Below are positions 2 to 10,937 of a stretch of 25,912 bases of DNA, one piece after another (position 1 is the stretch's first letter; the number at the start of each line of letters is the position of its first letter). The notes below the pieces were generated by a model, which saw nothing but the letters and a program-made list of their open reading frames with translations, did no database searches and had not been told where the DNA came from. This DNA is from a virus. The DNA lies in IMG/VR virus record IMGVR_UViG_3300047329_000035, positions 1 through 25,912 of that record. One strand, given 5' to 3'. The position numbers and the translations under genes are program-made.

Positions 2-667
2 TTCACCGTCGCGCGCAACGACGTCCTGAAAAACATCGCCGTGTCGATGGATGCGCCGGCGAAGTTCATGGACGGCGAGACCATGGTCGAAGGTTTCGGC
101 GAAGGCACCGAAGACGCGAAGAATATGGCCCGGTTTGTCGATGGCATCCGCGAGGACTGCGATCCGGTCTATGCTTTCTTCGACCGGTTCGCCATGCATC
201 GGGCATGGAACCCGAAATTCTATAAGACGGTCCAACAAATGTTTCCGGACCGCTACGGCAAGGTGTCCTATGACGACGCCTTTTATGAATGGCGCAACGC
301 CTACAAGGCGACATGGCCATCGCTGCTGATCGAGCCGGACAGCAAGCGGGCCGAGGCCGACAAGGTGAAGCATGAGGCGATCATGGCTGTGGTCGCAGCG
401 CTGATCGACAAGCTCGACCCAGAGAACAAGGCCCGGCTGCTGGAGTGGGTCGAAGACAATCTGAACGCAATCAAGATGATCTTCCCGGTTCCGCTCGAGC
501 TGGATCTCGACGCTTTCCTGACCTATGTCCCGCCCAATCTGCAGCCGAGTGCTGACGAAGAGATCGACGGCGAGGGGATCGCACCGGCCGGCGACATGCC
601 TGGTGACGGCAGCGCCGACGACAAGGTCGGCCGGGAACCAGCAGCGCCGCGCCTGGCCGCGGAGTGA
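2..667 (+). CDS. Putative phage portal protein, C-terminal part (5' truncated)
   Basis: The frame is open from base 2, so the gene begins upstream of the window; 221 codons are visible. The GTG at 41 is an internal Val, not a likely start. The residues MDAPAKFMDGETMVEGFGEGTE and a later FYEWRNAYKATWPSLLIEPDS block resemble, from memory, the C-terminal region of DUF1073-type portal proteins of tailed phages. The last ~45 residues are acidic and Gly/Asp/Pro-rich, like a disordered tail. A portal forms the dodecameric DNA gate at one vertex and nucleates head assembly. A position directly before an F-like head morphogenesis gene is the usual place for a portal. What is seen is the partial open frame and motif text; the family call is recalled and could be another large head-vertex protein. 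A profile search of the full upstream gene would settle it. Confidence 0.6.
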   Translation, partial: FTVARNDVLKNIAVSMDAPAKFMDGETMVEGFGEGTEDAKNMARFVDGIREDCDPVYAFFDRFAMHRAWNPKFYKTVQQMFPDRYGKVSYDDAFYEWRNAYKATWPSLLIEPDSKRAEADKVKHEAIMAVVAALIDKLDPENKARLLEWVEDNLNAIKMIFPVPLELDLDAFLTYVPPNLQPSADEEIDGEGIAPAGDMPGDGSADDKVGREPAAPRLAAE

Positions 668-2629: not shown

Positions 2630-2875
2630 ATGCCGCTTGAGACCGGGCCGGGCCGCGCCAAGTTCGAAGAGAATCTGAAGACGGAACTCGCCGCCGGCAA
2701 GCCGGAGGATCAGGCGCTCGCAATCGCCTATGCGAAGCAGCGCGGCGACGAACAGATCATGCCGCCGCCCATGCTGCCGCCGTCGCCGGTCAATCCGATG
2801 TTTCAGGCGGTGATGGCGATGGAGGCGCTGAACGCGCGCGCCGACTCGTTCCTCGCCAAGGTCGACAAGAAATGA
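2630..2875 (+). CDS. Small conserved-type phage protein, 81 residues
   Basis: ATG 2630 follows GGAG at 2619-2622 with good spacing. The N-terminal half, GRAKFEENLKTELAAGKP then EDQALAIAYAKQRG, is a helix pair of a kind I have seen in many small phage proteins encoded near head genes (pattern F-x-x-N...E-L-x-A-G-K-x-x-x-Q-A-L-A-I-A-Y). The middle is Pro/Met-rich (MPPPMLPPSPVNPMF), and the C-terminus is a second charged helix. No enzyme motif. Its stop overlaps the start of a 35-residue membrane peptide. Function unknown; a small assembly or regulatory peptide is a guess. Confidence 0.55.
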   Translation: MPLETGPGRAKFEENLKTELAAGKPEDQALAIAYAKQRGDEQIMPPPMLPPSPVNPMFQAVMAMEALNARADSFLAKVDKK

Positions 2876-3004: not shown

Positions 3005-3337
3005 ATGCCCGTCCCGACCATTCCCGTCCCGCCGCCGGCCACGCTCGCCGCGGGGATCACATGGAATTCCGGCATCATCCAGTCGCCGGACGCTTATGGC
3101 GTGGTCGCCTGCGGCACCCTCGACCAGACGGGCACGCTGACCGTTCAGCGCTATATAGACCCCAAGGGCACGGCGCCGGTCGGGCCGCCGATCGTGCAGG
3201 CCATGACGGCGTCGACAGCGGCATTCGCCGGCATCGCCGACGGGCTGCCGTATGGCTCCTATTCGGTCGCCATCGAAAATACTTCCGGCACCTTGGGCAA
3301 TCTGTCCAAGGTCTTCACGCGGTTTAACTATCCATGA
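3005..3337 (+). CDS. Hypothetical beta-rich protein, 110 residues
   Basis: The start chosen is ATG 3005, five bases after AGGAG (2996-3000). An in-frame upstream GTG at 2930 lies inside the membrane-peptide gene and lacks such a site. The product has a Pro-rich N-terminus (MPVPTIPVPPPATLAAG), then alternating strand-like segments: WNSGIIQSPDAYGVVACGTL, GTLTVQRYIDP and GSYSVAIENTSG. The last, with L-P-Y-G-S-Y-S-V-A-I-E-N-T-S-G-T near the C-terminus, looks like an Ig-like or jelly-roll sandwich. It directly precedes and overlaps (ATGA) the large fibre gene, so it may be a fibre partner, anchor or cap. I recognise no family; the structural role is inference. Confidence 0.55.
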   Translation: MPVPTIPVPPPATLAAGITWNSGIIQSPDAYGVVACGTLDQTGTLTVQRYIDPKGTAPVGPPIVQAMTASTAAFAGIADGLPYGSYSVAIENTSGTLGNLSKVFTRFNYP

Positions 3338-6207
3338 ACCGAAAACTGATAGCTTTCTTCGCGGCGGTCCTGGCCCTTGGCTCGGCCGATCTGTTCGCGC
3401 AGAACTTTTTTGGCCCGGCGGTCATTGGGCCGACCACGCCGGGCGACTGCCTCGAGGCGGCGACTCCCCCGCAACCGTCGAATGGCATCGTCGATGCTGG
3501 CGCGCCTTGCGGGAGCGGAGGCGGCGGCGCGGTCGACAAGGTCTCCGCCGGTGCGAGCGGCCTGCTGACCTCCAGCCCGACGACGGGCAACGTCGTCGTG
3601 GACGTCGCGCCGATCGCGACTAAGACGGTGCTGGCCAATACGACCGGCAGCACGGCTGTCCCTTCCGCCGACACGATCACTGCCCTGCTCGATGCCCAGC
3701 TCGGGGCGACGACGGGCGGTGTTGCGCTGCGCGGCGCTTCCGTCTGGGGATCGCTGGCGGATGTGGCGACCGGCTCCGTTCTTGTCAGCGGCGGCAGCGG
3801 CGCGGTCCCCACCTGGTCGACCTCCCTACCGTTCGCTGTGCCGCTGAGCGGCCTGGCCACGCAAGCGGCTCACACGGTCGTCGGCAACCCGACCGCGTCT
3901 TCCGCGGCACCGACCACGCTGACGCTGGGCGGCTTCCTCACAGACAGCGGCAGCGCGCTGAATGTCGTCACGGGCACGAGCGGTGCCAGCATCCCGCTGC
4001 TCTCCACGGCCAATACGTGGATGCTGGCGCAGACCTTCTCGACGCTGCCCGTCTGGCCGAGTCAAGGCGCGAACCTGTTCTATGCATCGCCGAATGGATC
4101 TTCGGGAGCTCCATCCTTCCGCGCGCTGGCCGGCGCTGATCTGCCGAACCCGACGACGTCGAGCCTTGGTGGCGTCCAAGCGGTTGCGAGCATCGCGCAC
4201 GAGTGGGTCAACACCATCTCCGCGTTCGGGGTGCCCGGTCTGAGCCAACCGGCCTGCGGCGACCTGTCGAACGCGGCCGCGTCCTGCTCGACGGATGCGA
4301 CGAATGCTTCGAACATCGCCAGTGGCACGCTGCCTGCGGCGCGGCTGCCAAACCCTTCGGCGACTACGCTGGGCGGCGTCGAAAGCATCGTCGTCAAGGC
4401 GCACCAATGGGTCAATACGATCTCGACGGCCGGCGTTCCCGCGACCACACAGCCTGCGTTCACCGATATCAGCGGCAGCCTGGCGCTCGCCCAGCTTCCG
4501 TCCGAGGCGGCCAATACGGTTCTCGGCGCGCTCACGGCAACAACGCCGAGCGCCCTTGCCGTCCCGTCATGTTCTGGCGCGTCCAATGCGTTGATCTGGA
4601 CGACCGGGACCGGGTTTGGATGCAACACGATCTCTGGAGGCGGCTCAGTCAGCATCACGGCGGCCGATGGCAGTATCGTCGTCAGCCCTTCGCCGATCAC
4701 GGGCACCGGCACGGTCACGGCCGGATTGATCCCGGTCAGCAAGGGCGGAACGAATGCGACTTCGGCCGGTGCGACCGCAGCCAACAACATCGGGGCGCTC
4801 GCCGAGGCGAGCAATCTCTCGGATCTCGCCAGCGCCGCGACAGCGCTGACCAATCTCGGCGCCGCACCCACGACGAACCCGATGTTCGGCGGCGTTGCAT
4901 CGTTTAACGGAACAACGACACCTACGCCTGCTGCAGGGGTCCTGACCGTGACAGGTTTGGCCACGGCCCCAGTGCTGGGTGCATCGGGTGAAGGTTTCCT
5001 TCAGATTTCCTCGACCAATGGGCTCATATTTAGCGGCGACGGTTCGAACAACGACATATCGTTCAAGAATTCTAGCGCTACGAATGTATTTACGATCCCG
5101 CATGGGTCGACCACTGTTAGTTTCGTAGCTCTACCTTCAATCCCGCTCGCTTCGACTAATGTTCTTGTTGGAAACGGGTCTGGCGTCGCCGCACCCGTGG
5201 CTGTATCCGGCGATGGCACGTTGGCGAATACCGGCGCGCTGAGCGTGACGAAGACTGGTGGCATAGCGTTTGCGCCGTCAGCCACGACCGACACGACCAA
5301 TGCCAGTAATATTACCTCTGGCACGTTGGCTTCAGCGCGTGGTGGTGTAGCATCGAACTTCCAATCCTTTTCCTCCGGAGGAACCTGGACAAAGCCGGCA
5401 AACATCACCTTCCTGAACGTCTGCGGTGCCGGCGGCGGCGGTGGTGGTGGTGGCGGTTCGGCAGTGGTTGCGGCCTCTGGGGGCGCTGGCGGTGGTGCAG
5501 GCTGGTACAGTTGCATCACGATCCCAGCATCCGCGGCAGGATCTACCGTTACGGTGACGATCGGCACAGGAGGCACGGGCGGGGCTCCGGGAACGTCGAC
5601 AGGTGTTGCCGGCAATCCGGGCGGCGAAACATCGTTTGGCACGATATTGACTTGGTTTGGCGGCGGCGGCGGCTCTCCTGGAACCGCTACCACTGCTACC
5701 GGAGGGGCGCCAGGCGGGCCGTTTTCAGCAGGTTCCGGCAGCACAAACGGCTTGGGCGGTGGAACTTACGTAGGGTGTGGCTCTGGAACGTCTTCGTCGA
5801 GCGCTGGGCCGGGATTTGGTGCTCTAGGTACGTCATTAGGTGAGGGTGCTGCCGCGAGAGAGGCAGGCTGCAAAGCCGCAGGAGGCGGCTCTGGTAGCGG
5901 CGGGGTCGTCGGCACCAACGGGGGAGCCGGCGGCCAAGCGATGGCTGGTCTCGGCGGCGCGGCGGGTGCCGACTCTCTGACCGCACCGGGCAACGGACAG
6001 CCAGGGGCTTCTGGCCTATCGACCTGTCAACCGGGGTCTGGAGGCGGCGGCGGCGGCGGCACGACTGGCGCAGTGCCGGCGGGAAATGGTGGCGTCGGTG
6101 GCGCTATGGGTGGCGCAGGCGGCGGAGCTGGCTCTGCACTTGCGACTGGCACGGGCGGAACCGGGGGAACCGGCGGCGCTGGTGGGCTTTGCGTTTACGC
6201 GTGGTAA
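3334..6207 (+). CDS. Large fibre/adhesin with signal peptide and glycine-rich C-terminal domain
   Basis: 957 residues. Residues 1-22 look like a Sec signal peptide: NRK, then a hydrophobic core, then LFA|Q as a possible signal-peptidase site. The shaft (about 60-670) is Ala/Thr/Gly/Ser-rich with fibre-type repeats. One is a pair of LPNP[ST]..LGGV...WVNTIS..GVP units 68 codons apart. Others are SKGGTNATSAGATAANNIGAL, LSDLASAATALTNLGAA, and TNAS-NI-SGTL twice. From about residue 674 a domain begins FSSGGTWTKPANITFLNVCGAG. It is then dominated by polyglycine stretches, like the Gly-rich C-terminal domains of receptor-binding fibres and gp38-type adhesins. The likely role is host or surface recognition. 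Unusual points are its place inside the head module rather than after the baseplate, the signal peptide, and a lower-GC segment near 4900-5360. It could be a head fibre, a tail fibre or an exported phage-encoded surface protein. Confidence 0.7.
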   Translation: MNRKLIAFFAAVLALGSADLFAQNFFGPAVIGPTTPGDCLEAATPPQPSNGIVDAGAPCGSGGGGAVDKVSAGASGLLTSSPTTGNVVVDVAPIATKTVLANTTGSTAVPSADTITALLDAQLGATTGGVALRGASVWGSLADVATGSVLVSGGSGAVPTWSTSLPFAVPLSGLATQAAHTVVGNPTASSAAPTTLTLGGFLTDSGSALNVVTGTSGASIPLLSTANTWMLAQTFSTLPVWPSQGANLFYASPNGSSGAPSFRALAGADLPNPTTSSLGGVQAVASIAHEWVNTISAFGVPGLSQPACGDLSNAAASCSTDATNASNIASGTLPAARLPNPSATTLGGVESIVVKAHQWVNTISTAGVPATTQPAFTDISGSLALAQLPSEAANTVLGALTATTPSALAVPSCSGASNALIWTTGTGFGCNTISGGGSVSITAADGSIVVSPSPITGTGTVTAGLIPVSKGGTNATSAGATAANNIGALAEASNLSDLASAATALTNLGAAPTTNPMFGGVASFNGTTTPTPAAGVLTVTGLATAPVLGASGEGFLQISSTNGLIFSGDGSNNDISFKNSSATNVFTIPHGSTTVSFVALPSIPLASTNVLVGNGSGVAAPVAVSGDGTLANTGALSVTKTGGIAFAPSATTDTTNASNITSGTLASARGGVASNFQSFSSGGTWTKPANITFLNVCGAGGGGGGGGGSAVVAASGGAGGGAGWYSCITIPASAAGSTVTVTIGTGGTGGAPGTSTGVAGNPGGETSFGTILTWFGGGGGSPGTATTATGGAPGGPFSAGSGSTNGLGGGTYVGCGSGTSSSSAGPGFGALGTSLGEGAAAREAGCKAAGGGSGSGGVVGTNGGAGGQAMAGLGGAAGADSLTAPGNGQPGASGLSTCQPGSGGGGGGGTTGAVPAGNGGVGGAMGGAGGGAGSALATGTGGTGGTGGAGGLCVYAW
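4141..4470 (+). repeat. Tandem fibre-shaft repeat, two units 68 codons apart
   Basis: Unit 1 starts at about 4141 and unit 2 at about 4345. Both encode LPNP-[TS]-[TA]-[ST]-[ST]-LGGV, then A-H-[EQ]-WVNTIS, then GVP and QPA. The two DNA copies have diverged (for example ctgccgaacccg versus ctgccaaaccct), so selection appears to act on the protein repeat. Such units form the beta-structured shaft of trimeric fibres and are hot spots for recombination. Confidence 0.6.
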
Positions 6208-6713: not shown

Positions 6714-7064
6714 ATGGCTCTTAGCCTTGTCACGGAGGAACGCCAGATGCCGCCGCAGCGACCCTACAATGGGCCGGAGCGCCGGCAGAGTGACCGGATG
6801 GTGCTGTCCGAGCTGAAGGATGCCGTCTCGCAGGGCGTCGACGAGGCGATCCGCAAGACGTTCGTGACTTTGGGTCTCGACCTCACCGACCCGGAAGACA
6901 TCGAGCGGTGGTACGCCGATCGGGCGTGGATCTCGCAGCGCCGGGCGGACGAAGAGGCTCGGAAGCATGCTGGCATCGCCGGCAACGTCGGGTTTCGAAA
7001 CGGCGTTATCACGGTCCTGCTGAGCACCTTTCTGGCTTGGCTCATTTCGCAGTGGCATAAGTGA
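6714..7064 (+). CDS. Small C-terminally membrane-anchored phage protein (holin-like or unknown)
   Basis: 116 residues from ATG 6714, or 105 from ATG 6747. Both starts have a usable ribosome site (GAGGA at 6702-6706; GGAGG at 6734-6738, 8 bases before 6747), so the start is undecided. The body is charged and helical (RPYNGPERRQSDR, then GLDLTDPEDIERWYADRAWI, then SQRRADEEARKH). The C-terminus, VITVLLSTFLAWLISQW followed by HK, is a single transmembrane helix. This tail-anchored layout with a DP-E-DIERW segment is seen in small phage proteins of unknown function found near structural genes. A holin is possible because of the membrane helix, but no endolysin adjoins it. Its stop overlaps the Nudix/protease gene start (GTGA). 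Confidence 0.55.
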   Translation: MALSLVTEERQMPPQRPYNGPERRQSDRMVLSELKDAVSQGVDEAIRKTFVTLGLDLTDPEDIERWYADRAWISQRRADEEARKHAGIAGNVGFRNGVITVLLSTFLAWLISQWHK

Positions 7065-8932
7065 GCGACCTCGCCGCCCAGATCGACGCGCCGACCGCGG
7101 CGGTGGTTCTGCCGCCGGCCGTGCCCGTGCGCGCGGCCGGCGTGCTCTACATCACGGAAGACGAGCGGGCGCTGTTCCTGAAGCGTGGGCCCGGCTCGGA
7201 TCATCCCGGCGAATGGGCATTCCCAGGCGGGCAGATCGAAGGCAACGAAACGCCGATCGAAGCCGCCATGCGCGAGAGCGAAGAGGAACTCGGCTTCAAG
7301 GTCGACGGCGACCTCGTCGAATGGACGCGCACCATCACGCCGCCGTTCTTCACCGGCTCGCCAGCGGAGGCCCTGGCCGAGGGATTGCCCGGCATCGCCG
7401 ATGGCGCTCTGAGCCCGGTCGACTTCACGACGTTTCTATGCCGCGTCGGCGAGACCTTCGAACCGGCGCTGAACGCCGAGCACGTCGGCTATGCCTGGGC
7501 ACCGGTCGACCAGCCGCCGGAAATCCTGCATCCCGGCTGCCGCGTGGCGCTCGATCGGTTCACCATGAACGAACTCGATCTCGCCCGCGCCATCCGAGAC
7601 GGCCGGCTGACCAGCCCGCAGAAGATCCACAACGTCTGGCTCTTCGCGCTGCGGGTGACCGGGACCGGGGTCGCCTATCGATCGGCGCTGAAGGAATACG
7701 CCTACCGCCGGCCCGAAAACTACCTGACGCCGGACTTCCTGGAGCGCATCGCCGGCCTGTCCGTGATCATAGATCACCCGGCCGACACGGTCATGTCGTC
7801 GGCAGACTTTCACCGCCGCATCGTCGGCGCCGTCATGATGCCGTACATCGCCGAAGATGAAGTCTGGGCGGTCTGCCGGATTCAGGACGACGAGGCTGCG
7901 GCAGCGCTCTGCGCGACCCAGCTCTCGACCTCGCCGAATGTCCTGTTGCGCGGCGCCGGCGGAACCAAGGTCGAATTGGCGGACGGCACGAGCATCCTGA
8001 TCGAGGATGATCCGAGTTTTGTTGACCACCTGGCGATTTGCCCGGTGGGTGTTTGGGACAAAGGCGGCGGCCCCGCTGGCGTCATTTCTGTGCAAGCTGG
8101 AGAGACAGCCATGGCTGACGAGACCGAAGAGAAGGCCCGCAAGGACGCCGAGGAGAAGGCGCGCGCCGATGCGGAAGAGTTCAAGAGCCGCATGGATGCC
8201 TTCATGTCGAAGGCCGACGCCGTCATGTCCCGCATGGATGCCGTCGAGAAGATGGTCGCCGACCGGAAGGACGCCGACGAGGAGAAGGCCAGGGCCGATG
8301 CCGAGGAGAAGGCGCGCGCGGACGCCGAGAAGTGCGAGCACGGCGAGGTCGCGAAGGACTGCGCCAAATGCGACAGCGCCCGGAAGGATGCCGCGGCCAA
8401 GGCCGATGCCGAGAAGGAAGCCGCCCGGGCCGATGCCGCGCGCCGTGATGCGACCTTCGCGACCCGCGACGAGATCAAGCGCCTCGAAGGCCTGATCGCC
8501 AAGCCGATGACCGATGCCGACTTCCGCGCCATGGGGCAGATACAGGCCCGGGCCGACAGCGTCATGCGGCTGCAGGGCGGCGAGGCGCCGCGACCGATGC
8601 AGGGCGAGACCGCGATCTCGTACCGGGTCCGCTTGGCCGACATGCTCAAGACCGCGTCGCCGACCTATTCGAAGGTCGAACTCGAGCGGACAGCGCTGGC
8701 CGATTCCGAGGGCGCCTTCAAGATCCTGGAAAACGGGATCTACGAAGAGGCCGAGCGCGCCGCCCGCAACCCGGCCACGGTCCCGGCCGGCCAGCTGCGC
8801 GCGATCGTCAACCGATCGGACAGCGGGCATACCGTCATCGAATATGCCGGAATGCCGGGCGTGTGGATGTCGGATTTCATGCCGCAGCGCCAGTTCGTCA
8901 AGGAATACAAGGCGGACGTTCGGGGCCGCTGA
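7061..8932 (+). CDS. Nudix - DUF2213 prohead protease - scaffold polyprotein
   Basis: 623 residues from a GTG overlapping the previous stop. Residues ~24-170 are a Nudix hydrolase domain. The Nudix box (residues 57-79) has G57, E63, R71-E72, E75-E76 and G78 in register with GX5EX7REUXEEXGU, except Ser at the first U. Residues ~195-335 match DUF2213, a phage prohead-protease-type domain: RPENYLTPDFLERIAG, IIDHP, RIVGAVMMPYI, STSPNV, DHLAICPVGVWDKGG. H239, S289/S291 and H323 are candidates for a Ser-His-His catalytic set. From ~350 the chain is a long Ala/Lys/Glu/Asp coiled coil with a C-x-H...C-x-x-C knuckle at 425-437, ending in an ordered C-terminus typical of a scaffold. The protease would cleave the scaffold during head maturation. 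What the Nudix domain does here is unknown. Next are the decoration and capsid genes. Confidence 0.8.
   Translation: MSDLAAQIDAPTAAVVLPPAVPVRAAGVLYITEDERALFLKRGPGSDHPGEWAFPGGQIEGNETPIEAAMRESEEELGFKVDGDLVEWTRTITPPFFTGSPAEALAEGLPGIADGALSPVDFTTFLCRVGETFEPALNAEHVGYAWAPVDQPPEILHPGCRVALDRFTMNELDLARAIRDGRLTSPQKIHNVWLFALRVTGTGVAYRSALKEYAYRRPENYLTPDFLERIAGLSVIIDHPADTVMSSADFHRRIVGAVMMPYIAEDEVWAVCRIQDDEAAAALCATQLSTSPNVLLRGAGGTKVELADGTSILIEDDPSFVDHLAICPVGVWDKGGGPAGVISVQAGETAMADETEEKARKDAEEKARADAEEFKSRMDAFMSKADAVMSRMDAVEKMVADRKDADEEKARADAEEKARADAEKCEHGEVAKDCAKCDSARKDAAAKADAEKEAARADAARRDATFATRDEIKRLEGLIAKPMTDADFRAMGQIQARADSVMRLQGGEAPRPMQGETAISYRVRLADMLKTASPTYSKVELERTALADSEGAFKILENGIYEEAERAARNPATVPAGQLRAIVNRSDSGHTVIEYAGMPGVWMSDFMPQRQFVKEYKADVRGR
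8111..8932 (+). CDS. Nested in-frame scaffold protein (internal start of the protease gene)
   Basis: Inside the polyprotein, ATG 8111 (residue M351) is preceded by GGAGAGA at 8099-8105, an almost ideal ribosome site and better than that of the full-length GTG. It lies exactly where the protease domain ends (VGVWDKGG) and the coiled coil begins (MADETEEKARKDAEEK). Translation from here would give a 273-residue free scaffold without Nudix or protease. This is the arrangement known for lambda C/Nu3 and Mu I/Z, where excess scaffold is made from the 3' part of the protease gene. The site and domain boundary are seen; use of the start is inferred. Confidence 0.6.
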   Translation: MADETEEKARKDAEEKARADAEEFKSRMDAFMSKADAVMSRMDAVEKMVADRKDADEEKARADAEEKARADAEKCEHGEVAKDCAKCDSARKDAAAKADAEKEAARADAARRDATFATRDEIKRLEGLIAKPMTDADFRAMGQIQARADSVMRLQGGEAPRPMQGETAISYRVRLADMLKTASPTYSKVELERTALADSEGAFKILENGIYEEAERAARNPATVPAGQLRAIVNRSDSGHTVIEYAGMPGVWMSDFMPQRQFVKEYKADVRGR

Positions 8933-8993: not shown

Positions 8994-9836
8994 ATGGTTA
9001 CCGCACCGGCTACCTTTCAGCCTTTCGGGACGACCAATGTGCTGGGCAGTTTCGACGTCTCGTCGGTCGGCCTGGTGCAGGGGACCGCCTATCCCGATCC
9101 GGCGATCATGTTCAAACTGGCACACGGGGTGTTGGCGCAGGCCGAGACGCTGCCGATGTTCGGCGGCATCGGCATCTATACCGACATCCCGCCGGCCGGG
9201 TCCGTACCGCTGGGAACGCCGGTCGGCCGCGCGACCTCGCTCAGCAACCTCATCGGCTTCAGCGTCTTCGACCTCAACTATGCCGCGGTCAATAACCCGA
9301 CATCGCCGGTGCCGACGTCCGGATCGGGGATGCAGGTCAACTATTACCGGCTGGGCAGCGGCGCTCGCGTGGCGCTCAAATGCGATCCGGCGCTGATCAG
9401 CCTGCAAAGCGGTCTGACCACGCAAAGCGTCTCCTGGGATTTCGTCAATCAGAAGATCATCCCCTACCAGGTCGGTACCGCCATCGTCTCGGCGACCTAC
9501 AATTCCGGTACCGGCGCCGTCGTGCTGACCTTCGCGGCCCCGTACAATACCGACGTCGGCGATACGATCGTCGTCTCGGGCGCCACCGGCACCGGCACGT
9601 TCGCCACGATCAACGGCAACCAGCAGGTCACCGCCGTAGCCGGCAATACCGTGACCTACAATGTCGCCACGGGGCAGACCATGACCATCACCGGTGCCAC
9701 GGTCGGTACGAGCGGCATCCTGCCGGTGCAGATCCTCGACATTCAGGAGGACAACTGCATCACGGTCGCGCTCAACCCGTCGACCGGCGCCGCGACCTGG
9801 TCGCTGAGCGACTGCTGCGCGGTCGCGCTGCTCTAA
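8994..9836 (+). CDS. Putative head decoration / capsid-stabilising protein with inserted beta module
   Basis: 280 residues, with ATG after AGGAGAGAAG. It lies between the protease/scaffold and the major capsid gene, the usual place for a decoration or cement protein. The core (residues ~1-158 and ~240-280) is beta-rich: FGTTNVLGSFDV, FGGIGIYTDIPPAGSVPLG, SGSGMQVNYYRLGSGARVAL, and a C-terminus with DCCAVALL. Residues 160-239 look like a separate insertion: VVLTFAAPYNTDVGDTIVVS ... TINGNQQVTAV ... TYNVATG. The same module type occurs in the sheath, plug and wedge proteins. Two or more Cys at the very end (LSDCCAV) and one in EDNC could form disulphides or metal sites. The product name is based on position; no specific family motif is recognised for the core. 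Confidence 0.55.
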   Translation: MVTAPATFQPFGTTNVLGSFDVSSVGLVQGTAYPDPAIMFKLAHGVLAQAETLPMFGGIGIYTDIPPAGSVPLGTPVGRATSLSNLIGFSVFDLNYAAVNNPTSPVPTSGSGMQVNYYRLGSGARVALKCDPALISLQSGLTTQSVSWDFVNQKIIPYQVGTAIVSATYNSGTGAVVLTFAAPYNTDVGDTIVVSGATGTGTFATINGNQQVTAVAGNTVTYNVATGQTMTITGATVGTSGILPVQILDIQEDNCITVALNPSTGAATWSLSDCCAVALL

Positions 9837-9911: not shown

Positions 9912-10937
9912 ATGACCATTCAGGCGTCTGCGTATGAAATGGTGCACCCGAGCTTCGTCGAGCCGGAAATCATCATTCAGTATTCCCAGGCCTCCGGAGC
10001 CTTCGACCTGATCCAGGGTTCCCAGCCGCGTGTGCGGATCGCGTCGGACGACCTCGCCGTCTATATGAAGTACATGCGTCTGCGCACGAAGATCGCGGCC
10101 GCGCAGTCGACCTTCAACGAGCTGCCGGGCGTCGACATCATGAACGGCATGATCTCAACCCCGACCTATCTGACGAAGGTCCGGTCGGCCTACGATCATC
10201 ACGATGTCGCCGCCGGCGCGCGGTGGGGTTTCTCCGTTCCTGAAGCCTATCGCCTGGGCATGCGGCAGGCGAATTTCCAACTCGCCCGCGACGCGCTGCT
10301 CTACGGCTTCAATCCCCAGAACGGCGAGGGCCTGCTCAACACGAACGGGGCTTCCGCGACCAATCTGCCGCCCGATCAGAACGGCAACGATACCGTCGTC
10401 ACCTATGACAACGGCGCCATGGCCTTCTTTCTGGCGCAGCGCATTCAGCAGATGAAGACGCGCACCCTGCAGATGGGTATCGCCCGGCATTTCTCGATCG
10501 TCGGGCCGCAGGAAACGCTGGGTTCGTTCGAATACAACGTCGTCCAGCTGACCCAGTTCCAGCGTGACGGCGCCGGCACGGCGTCGACCAAGGAGACGCT
10601 GCAGTCGATCATCATGGCCAACGGGGATACGCTCTCCTGGGGCTATGATGACACGCTGAAGGGCAAAGGCGCCGGCGGGACCGATGCAGTCGTCCTGACC
10701 ATGCCGGAAATCGAGCCGCCGAAGAACCAGGCCGGCCAGATCAACACCAACGATTTCTCCAAGCTCACGCCGGGCAATCGCACCGTGACGACGCAGTATT
10801 GCGACATGGCCGCGCCGCGCGAGATCATCAGCCCGCTGGCCGGCGGCGCCACGGACAACCTCATGGAGTGGAGATTCACCTCCGGCTGGGGCGTGCGGCC
10901 CGAAGGCGTGGACATCATCAGCATGCAATATCAGTGA
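9912..10937 (+). CDS. Major capsid protein, DUF2184-like (HK97-fold type)
   Basis: 341 residues with a good ribosome site (AGGGA, 9 bases upstream). The sequence follows the DUF2184 major-capsid pattern. It has an N-terminal segment SFVEPEIIIQYSQASGAFDL, a charged E-loop-like region, then WGFSVPEAYRLGMRQANFQL with ARDALLYGFNPQNGEGLLN. A later MGIARHFSIVGPQETLGSFE precedes a C-terminal domain ending MEWRFTSGWGVRPEGVDIIS. The length fits an unprocessed capsid subunit with scaffolding supplied separately. It would assemble with the scaffold/protease encoded just upstream and be coated by the 8994 product. A long hairpin and promoter follow its stop. The family call is from memory of these motifs; the position in the operon agrees. 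Confidence 0.75.
   Translation: MTIQASAYEMVHPSFVEPEIIIQYSQASGAFDLIQGSQPRVRIASDDLAVYMKYMRLRTKIAAAQSTFNELPGVDIMNGMISTPTYLTKVRSAYDHHDVAAGARWGFSVPEAYRLGMRQANFQLARDALLYGFNPQNGEGLLNTNGASATNLPPDQNGNDTVVTYDNGAMAFFLAQRIQQMKTRTLQMGIARHFSIVGPQETLGSFEYNVVQLTQFQRDGAGTASTKETLQSIIMANGDTLSWGYDDTLKGKGAGGTDAVVLTMPEIEPPKNQAGQINTNDFSKLTPGNRTVTTQYCDMAAPREIISPLAGGATDNLMEWRFTSGWGVRPEGVDIISMQYQ

Follow-up and report, generated by a model that had tools for sequence, protein, structure and literature searches.

In the window analysed here, the whole 25,912-base stretch of virus record IMGVR_UViG_3300047329_000035, an uninterrupted plus-strand frame of 623 codons (7061-8932, GTG start to stop) joins, in order, a Nudix domain, a DUF2213-related prohead protease, a scaffold rich in repeats and a C-terminal domain. 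The reading preferred here, at a probability of about 0.5, is that the product is a self-processing polyprotein of protease and scaffold by which enzymes are loaded into the head, and that its Nudix-protease unit reaches the next cell. That an assembling head might carry the Nudix enzyme, as the original prediction for this DNA proposed, is a natural inference from the fusion. The fusion, head carriage and an ADP-ribose interpretation are already in print (PMC9503650); the variant in which the protein is a more general cargo carrier comes from the relatives surveyed here.

At its GTG start the frame shares bases with the stop codon of the open frame before it (GTGA), and phrog_6216, a PHROG family without assigned function, matches residues 26-612 of the protein (expectation value, E, 3e-140). 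An AlphaFold model of residues 1-350, built on a 20-row alignment, has a mean predicted local distance difference test score of 82.9 and a predicted template modelling score of 0.80. Because the joined frame recurs in cultured phages, IMG/VR contigs and bacterial genomes, a local frame error between Nudix and protease is excluded. The predicted union of Nudix, prohead protease and scaffold in a single frame is confirmed by the open frame itself, which holds no stop between the domains, by a significant match to the Nudix profile PF00293, by the structure model and by the relatives.

Those relatives were gathered by a whole-protein scan (36 viral loci) and by scans with the protease domain only, which supplied 23 relatives from bacterial genomes and, from viral contigs, the best 80 of at least 587. 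After removal of five frames in three loci (L032, L091 and L149) in which the protease domain was short or broken, the 140 loci with a usable protease frame yielded 104 distinct protease domains. Nudix lies in the same frame in 85 of these and in a separate upstream frame in 4 (L047, L053, L054, L113), and none was detected in the remaining 15 within the sequence stretch surveyed at each locus. The 85 of 104 is a biased figure, since one scan used the whole protein and alignment A1 held 13 Nudix-bearing and 2 Nudix-less rows; the protease-only scans gave fused, separate and no Nudix in 53, 4 and 9 of 66 domains from viral contigs and in 18, 0 and 4 of 22 from genomes, and clustering at 80% gave 46, 4 and 8 of 58. 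In an annotated phage collection 78 records matched. Among the 60 listed, at least 12 cover both the Nudix and the protease parts (QDWS, zrk29-1, PdC23 twice, RothC, RothD, Chronis and five Yersinia phages), and two, Rac-SA53 and Apl-pPE4, are protease records without Nudix. Three records of a plasmid collection also matched. The architecture is therefore not unique, being a known PHROG family found in cultured phages, viral contigs and genomes and described by Iyer et al. 2022 (PMC9503650), and the rarity implied at the outset was mistaken, since many of the protease's relatives share it.

The Nudix domain occupies residues 23-168 (7127-7564). PF00293 matches residues 23-154 (E 1.5e-17, 64.3 bits against a cut-off of 21.1), and residues 20-168 of the model match solved Nudix enzymes, the best being 4dyw (Z 19.3, root-mean-square deviation 2.0 over 126 residues). 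Within the Nudix box (residues 57-79, 7229-7297), G57, E63, R71, E72, E75, E76 and G78 are kept, and the sole departure from Gx5Ex7REUxEExGU is a serine, S73, at the first hydrophobic position, so that its earlier description as almost complete, with E75-E76 in place, was fair. The first six of these residues are invariant across the 24 aligned relatives. The core catalytic motif is intact in 84 of the 85 distinct fused relatives and the strict form, with the last glycine, in 82; the box of L140 lacks one glutamate. The ratio of nonsynonymous to synonymous substitution rates (dN/dS) for Nudix ranged from 0.045 to 0.49 over 21 disjoint pairs. Over 299 usable pairs its median was 0.289 (largest value 1.035), as compared to 0.198 for the protease and 0.398 for the C-terminal domain. 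Purifying selection and the kept catalytic residues reject a decayed relic for the Nudix-protease family, bearing out what had been argued from the active site of the window protein.

As to substrate, the structural and profile matches are scattered over MutT, Ap4A hydrolase, decapping, ADP-ribose and NrtR types, the best structural matches to differing types falling within a few Z units of each other, and no NCBIfam equivalog scored at its cut-off for a Nudix substrate class. When only the column 15 residues past the end of the box is counted, 8 of 46 representatives, including the window protein, have the proline that is characteristic of ADP-ribose pyrophosphatases. Structure and motif give nothing firm: an ADP-ribose, nicotinamide adenine dinucleotide (NAD) or cap-like target is neither shown nor excluded by them.

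The domain that follows (residues 181-343, 7601-8089) was first called a DUF2213 prohead protease, of which the protease part holds and the family membership does not: the DUF2213 profile reaches 14.3 bits, under the Pfam cut-off of 22, and the domain is better described as DUF2213-related. Ten scanned relatives straddle the same threshold, with five clearly above it, one at it and four not passing. H239, S289, S291, D322 and H323 are invariant in all 104 distinct protease domains and presumably include the catalytic residues. Viral matches to the structure model, over an unspecified range of it, include prohead proteases and DUF2213 proteins; phrog_530 (head maturation protease) is matched by relatives L105 and L066 and weakly by L041; and the gene sits between portal/MuF and capsid genes.

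Downstream of the protease, 8090-8509 encodes the repeat-rich region and 8510-8878 the conserved C-terminal domain (residues 484-606). The former is assigned as a probable scaffold from its repeats, the gene order and relatives in which it is split off, rather than from a profile match. Thirteen copies of the short motif [KR]xD[AS] lie between residues 360 and 461, and two more in the C-terminal domain, making 15 sites in this gene as compared to 4 in the 27 other frames of the window. Across 89 scaffolds there are 606 sites (shuffled sequences, 70.3 ± 7.4, maximum 92) and in the C-terminal domains 140 (28.0 ± 5.0 shuffled), an excess that is post hoc for the scaffold, from whose sequence contexts the motif was read off after AD[AS] and then [KRAS][AMV]D[AS] (4 of 14 representatives) had been tested. 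For the N-terminal region the test is partly independent: among fused members with at least 25 residues before Nudix, 31 of 42 carry a site there (5.1 expected), and after 80% clustering 8 of 14 do (shuffle mean 1.4, maximum 6). The motif is at or below chance in Nudix (3 sites, 7.5 expected) and protease domains (6, 13.5 expected), and five control proteins from other phages, including the protease-like proteins of BcepNY3, Bm1 and Orimi01, have zero or one. The linker between Nudix and protease, 12 residues in the window (169-180, 7565-7600), contains none, nor do any of the 85 linkers; this is weak evidence by itself, because the linkers are short and shuffles expect just 1.7 sites. [KR]xD[AS] is accordingly put forward from sequence comparison as a candidate self-cleavage motif, one that would leave Nudix on the protease. 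The suggestion that proteolysis releases Nudix is not supported in that form, with a crowded scaffold and 0 of 85 linkers bearing the motif, and it is more likely that Nudix stays attached.

Extra scaffold would be made from a conserved internal start. In the window, GGAG at 8099-8102, a probable ribosome-binding site, precedes an in-frame ATG at 8111 (codon 351), from which a probable nested scaffold gene of 273 residues runs to 8932. A ribosome-binding core lies 5-11 bases ahead of the first in-frame ATG downstream of the protease in 81 of 88 members, in 42 of 45 families at 80% clustering and in 25 of 27 at 70%, for which synonymous resampling gave 11.7 ± 2.0 with a maximum of 17; elsewhere in these frames, 21 of 232 in-frame internal ATGs have such a core. 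Six other distinct loci (L034, L051, L069, L090, L094, L134) have the scaffold as its own gene with Nudix still on the protease, and in each of them the separate scaffold gene has a start preceded by a GGAG core, at long spacing in L034.

What precedes Nudix varies. Nine distinct fused proteins have at least 100 residues there, and eight were scanned with Pfam (L094 was left out). An ART domain (PF03496) was found in four distinct proteins, L004 (of the same type as L029), L098, L028 and L118, with E from 3e-18 to 2.6e-21, LPD3 in L013 (1.3e-16) and PBECR1 in L057 (4.3e-09); the extensions of L011 and L062 had no Pfam match. The arginine, STS and ExE features of the ART motif are all present in an alignment of the four. 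Seven of the nine long-extension proteins have a [KR]xD[AS] site no more than 27 residues from where Nudix begins. In L105 (3674-4801) Nudix is replaced by a rubrerythrin/EncFtn-like domain (E 1.5e-07 and 6.6e-07), of a kind that elsewhere occurs as cargo of encapsulin shells. Two N-terminal tags, MPLEKGSS... and ...SEKQHRAMEAAAHGHSTLGIP..., recur, and in some relatives the tag is followed by [KR]xD[AS]; the window protein has no such tag. The tag found at the head of the protease polyprotein in relatives does, however, begin a separate 81-residue protein in the window (2630-2875, MPLETGP...), which holds one of the only four [KR]xD[AS] sites outside the protease gene in the frames checked; in 13 other loci, too, the tag has a frame of its own.

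The same enzymes also occur on other head proteins. A search with the ART domain of L098 found 8 viral loci and 5 phage records. In Orimi01 the ART domain ends the protein that follows terminase, the usual place of the portal, an identity given by position alone, and in ctfzr933 it forms the end of a minor capsid protein; L154 was not counted as ART plus Nudix, Nudix not being evident in the matching row. Nudix ends the portal of BcepNY3 and stands alone between head genes in Bm1. Nudix hydrolases reportedly degrade protein-conjugated ADP-ribose, which makes a pairing of ART with Nudix chemically plausible.

Together these features suggest a route. The C-terminal scaffold part would bring the whole chain into the growing procapsid, with additional scaffold supplied from 8111, as the conserved start supports. 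The protease would then cut the scaffold at its many [KR]xD[AS] sites, leaving the Nudix-protease unit, some copies of which may remain inside the head and be injected into the next cell along with the DNA. There, in what is the weakest step, Nudix would hydrolyse some nucleoside-diphosphate-linked compound, the most plausible being a metabolite or signal of the NAD or ADP-ribose type. As first proposed, the enzyme might also be used against nucleotide-signal defences. The N-terminal position would serve as a cargo slot, mostly occupied by Nudix, to which a few members add ART, PBECR1 nuclease or LPD3, and in one filled by a ferritin-like domain instead. A broader proposal, more tentative than head carriage of Nudix, is that the family is a general one-gene cargo system of tag, enzyme or enzymes, protease and scaffold, with [KR]xD[AS] at many junctions and the enzyme either freed or left attached. 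Equally tentative is the idea that, where both are present, ART as writer and Nudix as hydrolase of ADP-ribose chemistry are delivered together. As described in the T4 account PMC9026906, internal proteins of T4, and its ART Alt, are directed into the head by peptides that its protease removes, and passages on P1 and 7-7-1 report traces of prohead protease in their virions (PMC9024508, PMC3517404).

Several observations weigh against head carriage with self-processing. Once a head has matured, most of its prohead protease is gone (72 and 3 in the T4 table row of PMC9026906), and an attached Nudix would therefore go too. Nudix is undetected in 15 of the 104 relatives and separate in 4, including the sister of the window protein, L047, so that the fusion is dispensable. 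The scaffold is of low complexity and TolA-like, and its coiled-coil repeats may explain part of the motif excess. Three of the four ART proteins have a [KR]xD[AS] site within the ART domain itself, and two of the nine long-extension proteins (L013 and L094) have no site within 30 residues of Nudix. At the internal start, enrichment is limited to 4-base ribosome-binding cores, matches of at least 7 bases to the ribosomal end not being enriched (0 of 88, 1.0 expected). Finally, a literature search, with supplements and figures outside its scope, found no virion proteomics, cleavage or enzyme assays for the family.

L047 is the sister of the window protein in the tree (support 97/91, 58% identity), and its Nudix is a separate gene with a probable start at 3242 and a stop at 3628, its protease gene beginning at 3884. 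The 255-base gap between these genes (3629-3883) appears by eye to contain a large inverted repeat. The L047 protease gene begins with a Nudix end, LHPG, and an [LI]HPG remnant is likewise left in L053, L054 and L113, which is the one feature to suggest that fusion came first and separation later. A tree of 58 representatives requires at least nine changes between fused and not fused, six of them forced by well-supported branches. The label is only weakly clustered on it, values as low occurring in 45 of 500 shuffles ('fused') and in 33 ('not'), and the number of gains and losses is therefore not inferred. Rearranged loci were also noted: L054/L055 has Nudix with topoisomerase IB in a 457-residue frame (750-2120) upstream of a protease that lost its Nudix; in L037 (5803-7089) a clear DUF2213 protease follows a Nudix remnant whose catalytic box is shortened; in L035 (5266-6654) Nudix forms the C-terminus of a different protein, one whose N-terminal part has no Pfam match; and in L146 (5315-6636) the C-terminal-domain frame precedes the protease frame instead of following it.

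Other explanations account for parts of these data. Nudix may act in the cell that produces the virions, either ahead of assembly or while it proceeds, perhaps by removing signals derived from NAD or ADP-ribose late in infection, with the fusion simply tying its expression to the head genes; it would then leave or be destroyed together with the protease. The four relatives with a separate Nudix gene in the same place, and Bm1 with one between head genes, indicate that packaging by fusion is not needed, and the large loss of prohead proteases from mature heads in the T4 account (PMC9026906) agrees with this explanation. It is nevertheless considered unlikely, though the least so of the alternatives, given that the fusion persists through a divergent family, that other enzymes occupy the slot and that ART and Nudix occur on other head proteins. 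A different role would be that of regulator or folding partner, in which nucleotide binding by Nudix times or localises proteolysis. Consistent with such a role are the direct adjoining of Nudix and protease without a candidate cut site, the [LI]HPG end kept on the protease by all four relatives with a separated Nudix, and the Nudix remnant with a shortened catalytic helix that precedes another DUF2213 protease in L037. Retention of the core catalytic motif in 84 of 85 fused relatives argues otherwise, as do the 15 of 104 proteases with no detected Nudix, and this role appears improbable.

The fusion may even be neutral, a moron-like Nudix gene having joined the head operon by chance and persisted without a head-related role. 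The frequent gain and loss on the tree would fit such a history; purifying selection, conserved catalytic residues and presence in most of a divergent family speak against it, and it is very improbable. Head carriage of a Nudix-protease unit remains the preferred reading over each of these.

The surrounding genes place the fusion among head genes. On the plus strand, the window opens with the end part of a portal protein (2-667; phrog_146, E 8.9e-10) and a head morphogenesis protein (677-1513; phrog_324, E 2.2e-22). Directly after the latter comes a DUF6527 protein (1510-1812; 29.1 bits against a cut-off of 23.6). The fusion is followed, on the plus strand, by a conserved head-region protein (8994-9836; phrog_6268, E 2.2e-50, no function given) and by the major capsid protein (9912-10937), which matches phrog_6671 and the major head protein phrog_264 (E 5.5e-05) and scores 24.3 bits with Pfam Major_capside, below its cut-off of 26.8. 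With tail sheath, tape measure and baseplate genes also present, the window is part of a contractile-tailed phage.

If the cargo-slot reading is correct, a single protease gene family would allow head-loaded enzymes and their cut sites to be predicted from sequence, and head-delivered effectors would become predictable and testable in cultured phages. Proteins that join ART and Nudix would also allow a direct test of whether phages bring in a matched pair of ADP-ribose activities as infection begins. Should [KR]xD[AS] prove to be a cleavage motif, it would supply a cleavage rule for this protease group, for which the literature search found none.

The closest published description is that of Iyer et al. 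2022, who report NudE-like domains fused to MuF, portal and a capsid-processing serine peptidase, and who propose packaging, injection and the processing of ADP-ribose derivatives or countering of ADP-ribose signals (PMC9503650, section 3.5.2). The window protein is an instance of their Nudix and capsid-processing peptidase in one polypeptide; the nested start, [KR]xD[AS] and the ART, PBECR1, LPD3 and ferritin-like domains on the protease are unmentioned in that text, Figure 5a aside. Among cultured phages, PdC23, Chronis, RothC/D, QDWS and Yersinia 29.18 have the same Nudix-protease-scaffold order and gene order at ∼36-43% identity, in proteins labelled NUDIX hydrolase, hypothetical protein or glycosyl transferase. 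The proteins of Rac-SA53 and Apl-pPE4, annotated TolA, share the protease, scaffold and C-terminal domain, but they lack Nudix and begin just before the protease. Polyvalent proteins, as set out in passages of Iyer et al. 2017 (PMC5512222), resemble the family in being multidomain, with ART, PBECR and LPD domains near head genes, and inferred to be injected, whereas the carrier here is a protease-scaffold protein, which is not among the carriers named in those passages. T4, in the account of PMC9026906, likewise has head-carried enzymes and a prohead protease, gp21, with a short recognition motif and a second internal start at Met45; it differs in that its cargo proteins are separate and bear capsid targeting sequences, and in that its protease motif is L/I-X-E, as compared to cargo fused to the protease and the candidate motif [KR]xD[AS] in the family of the window.

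The nested arrangement also has precedents. Lambda C and Nu3 are nested protease and scaffold genes in which an internal start gives scaffold alone, and gp13/gp13' of BcepNY3 has an internal start with the same outcome, as proposed for the window. Unlike the window protein, neither the lambda C nor the BcepNY3 protease carries an N-terminal Nudix, and BcepNY3 bears its Nudix on the portal.

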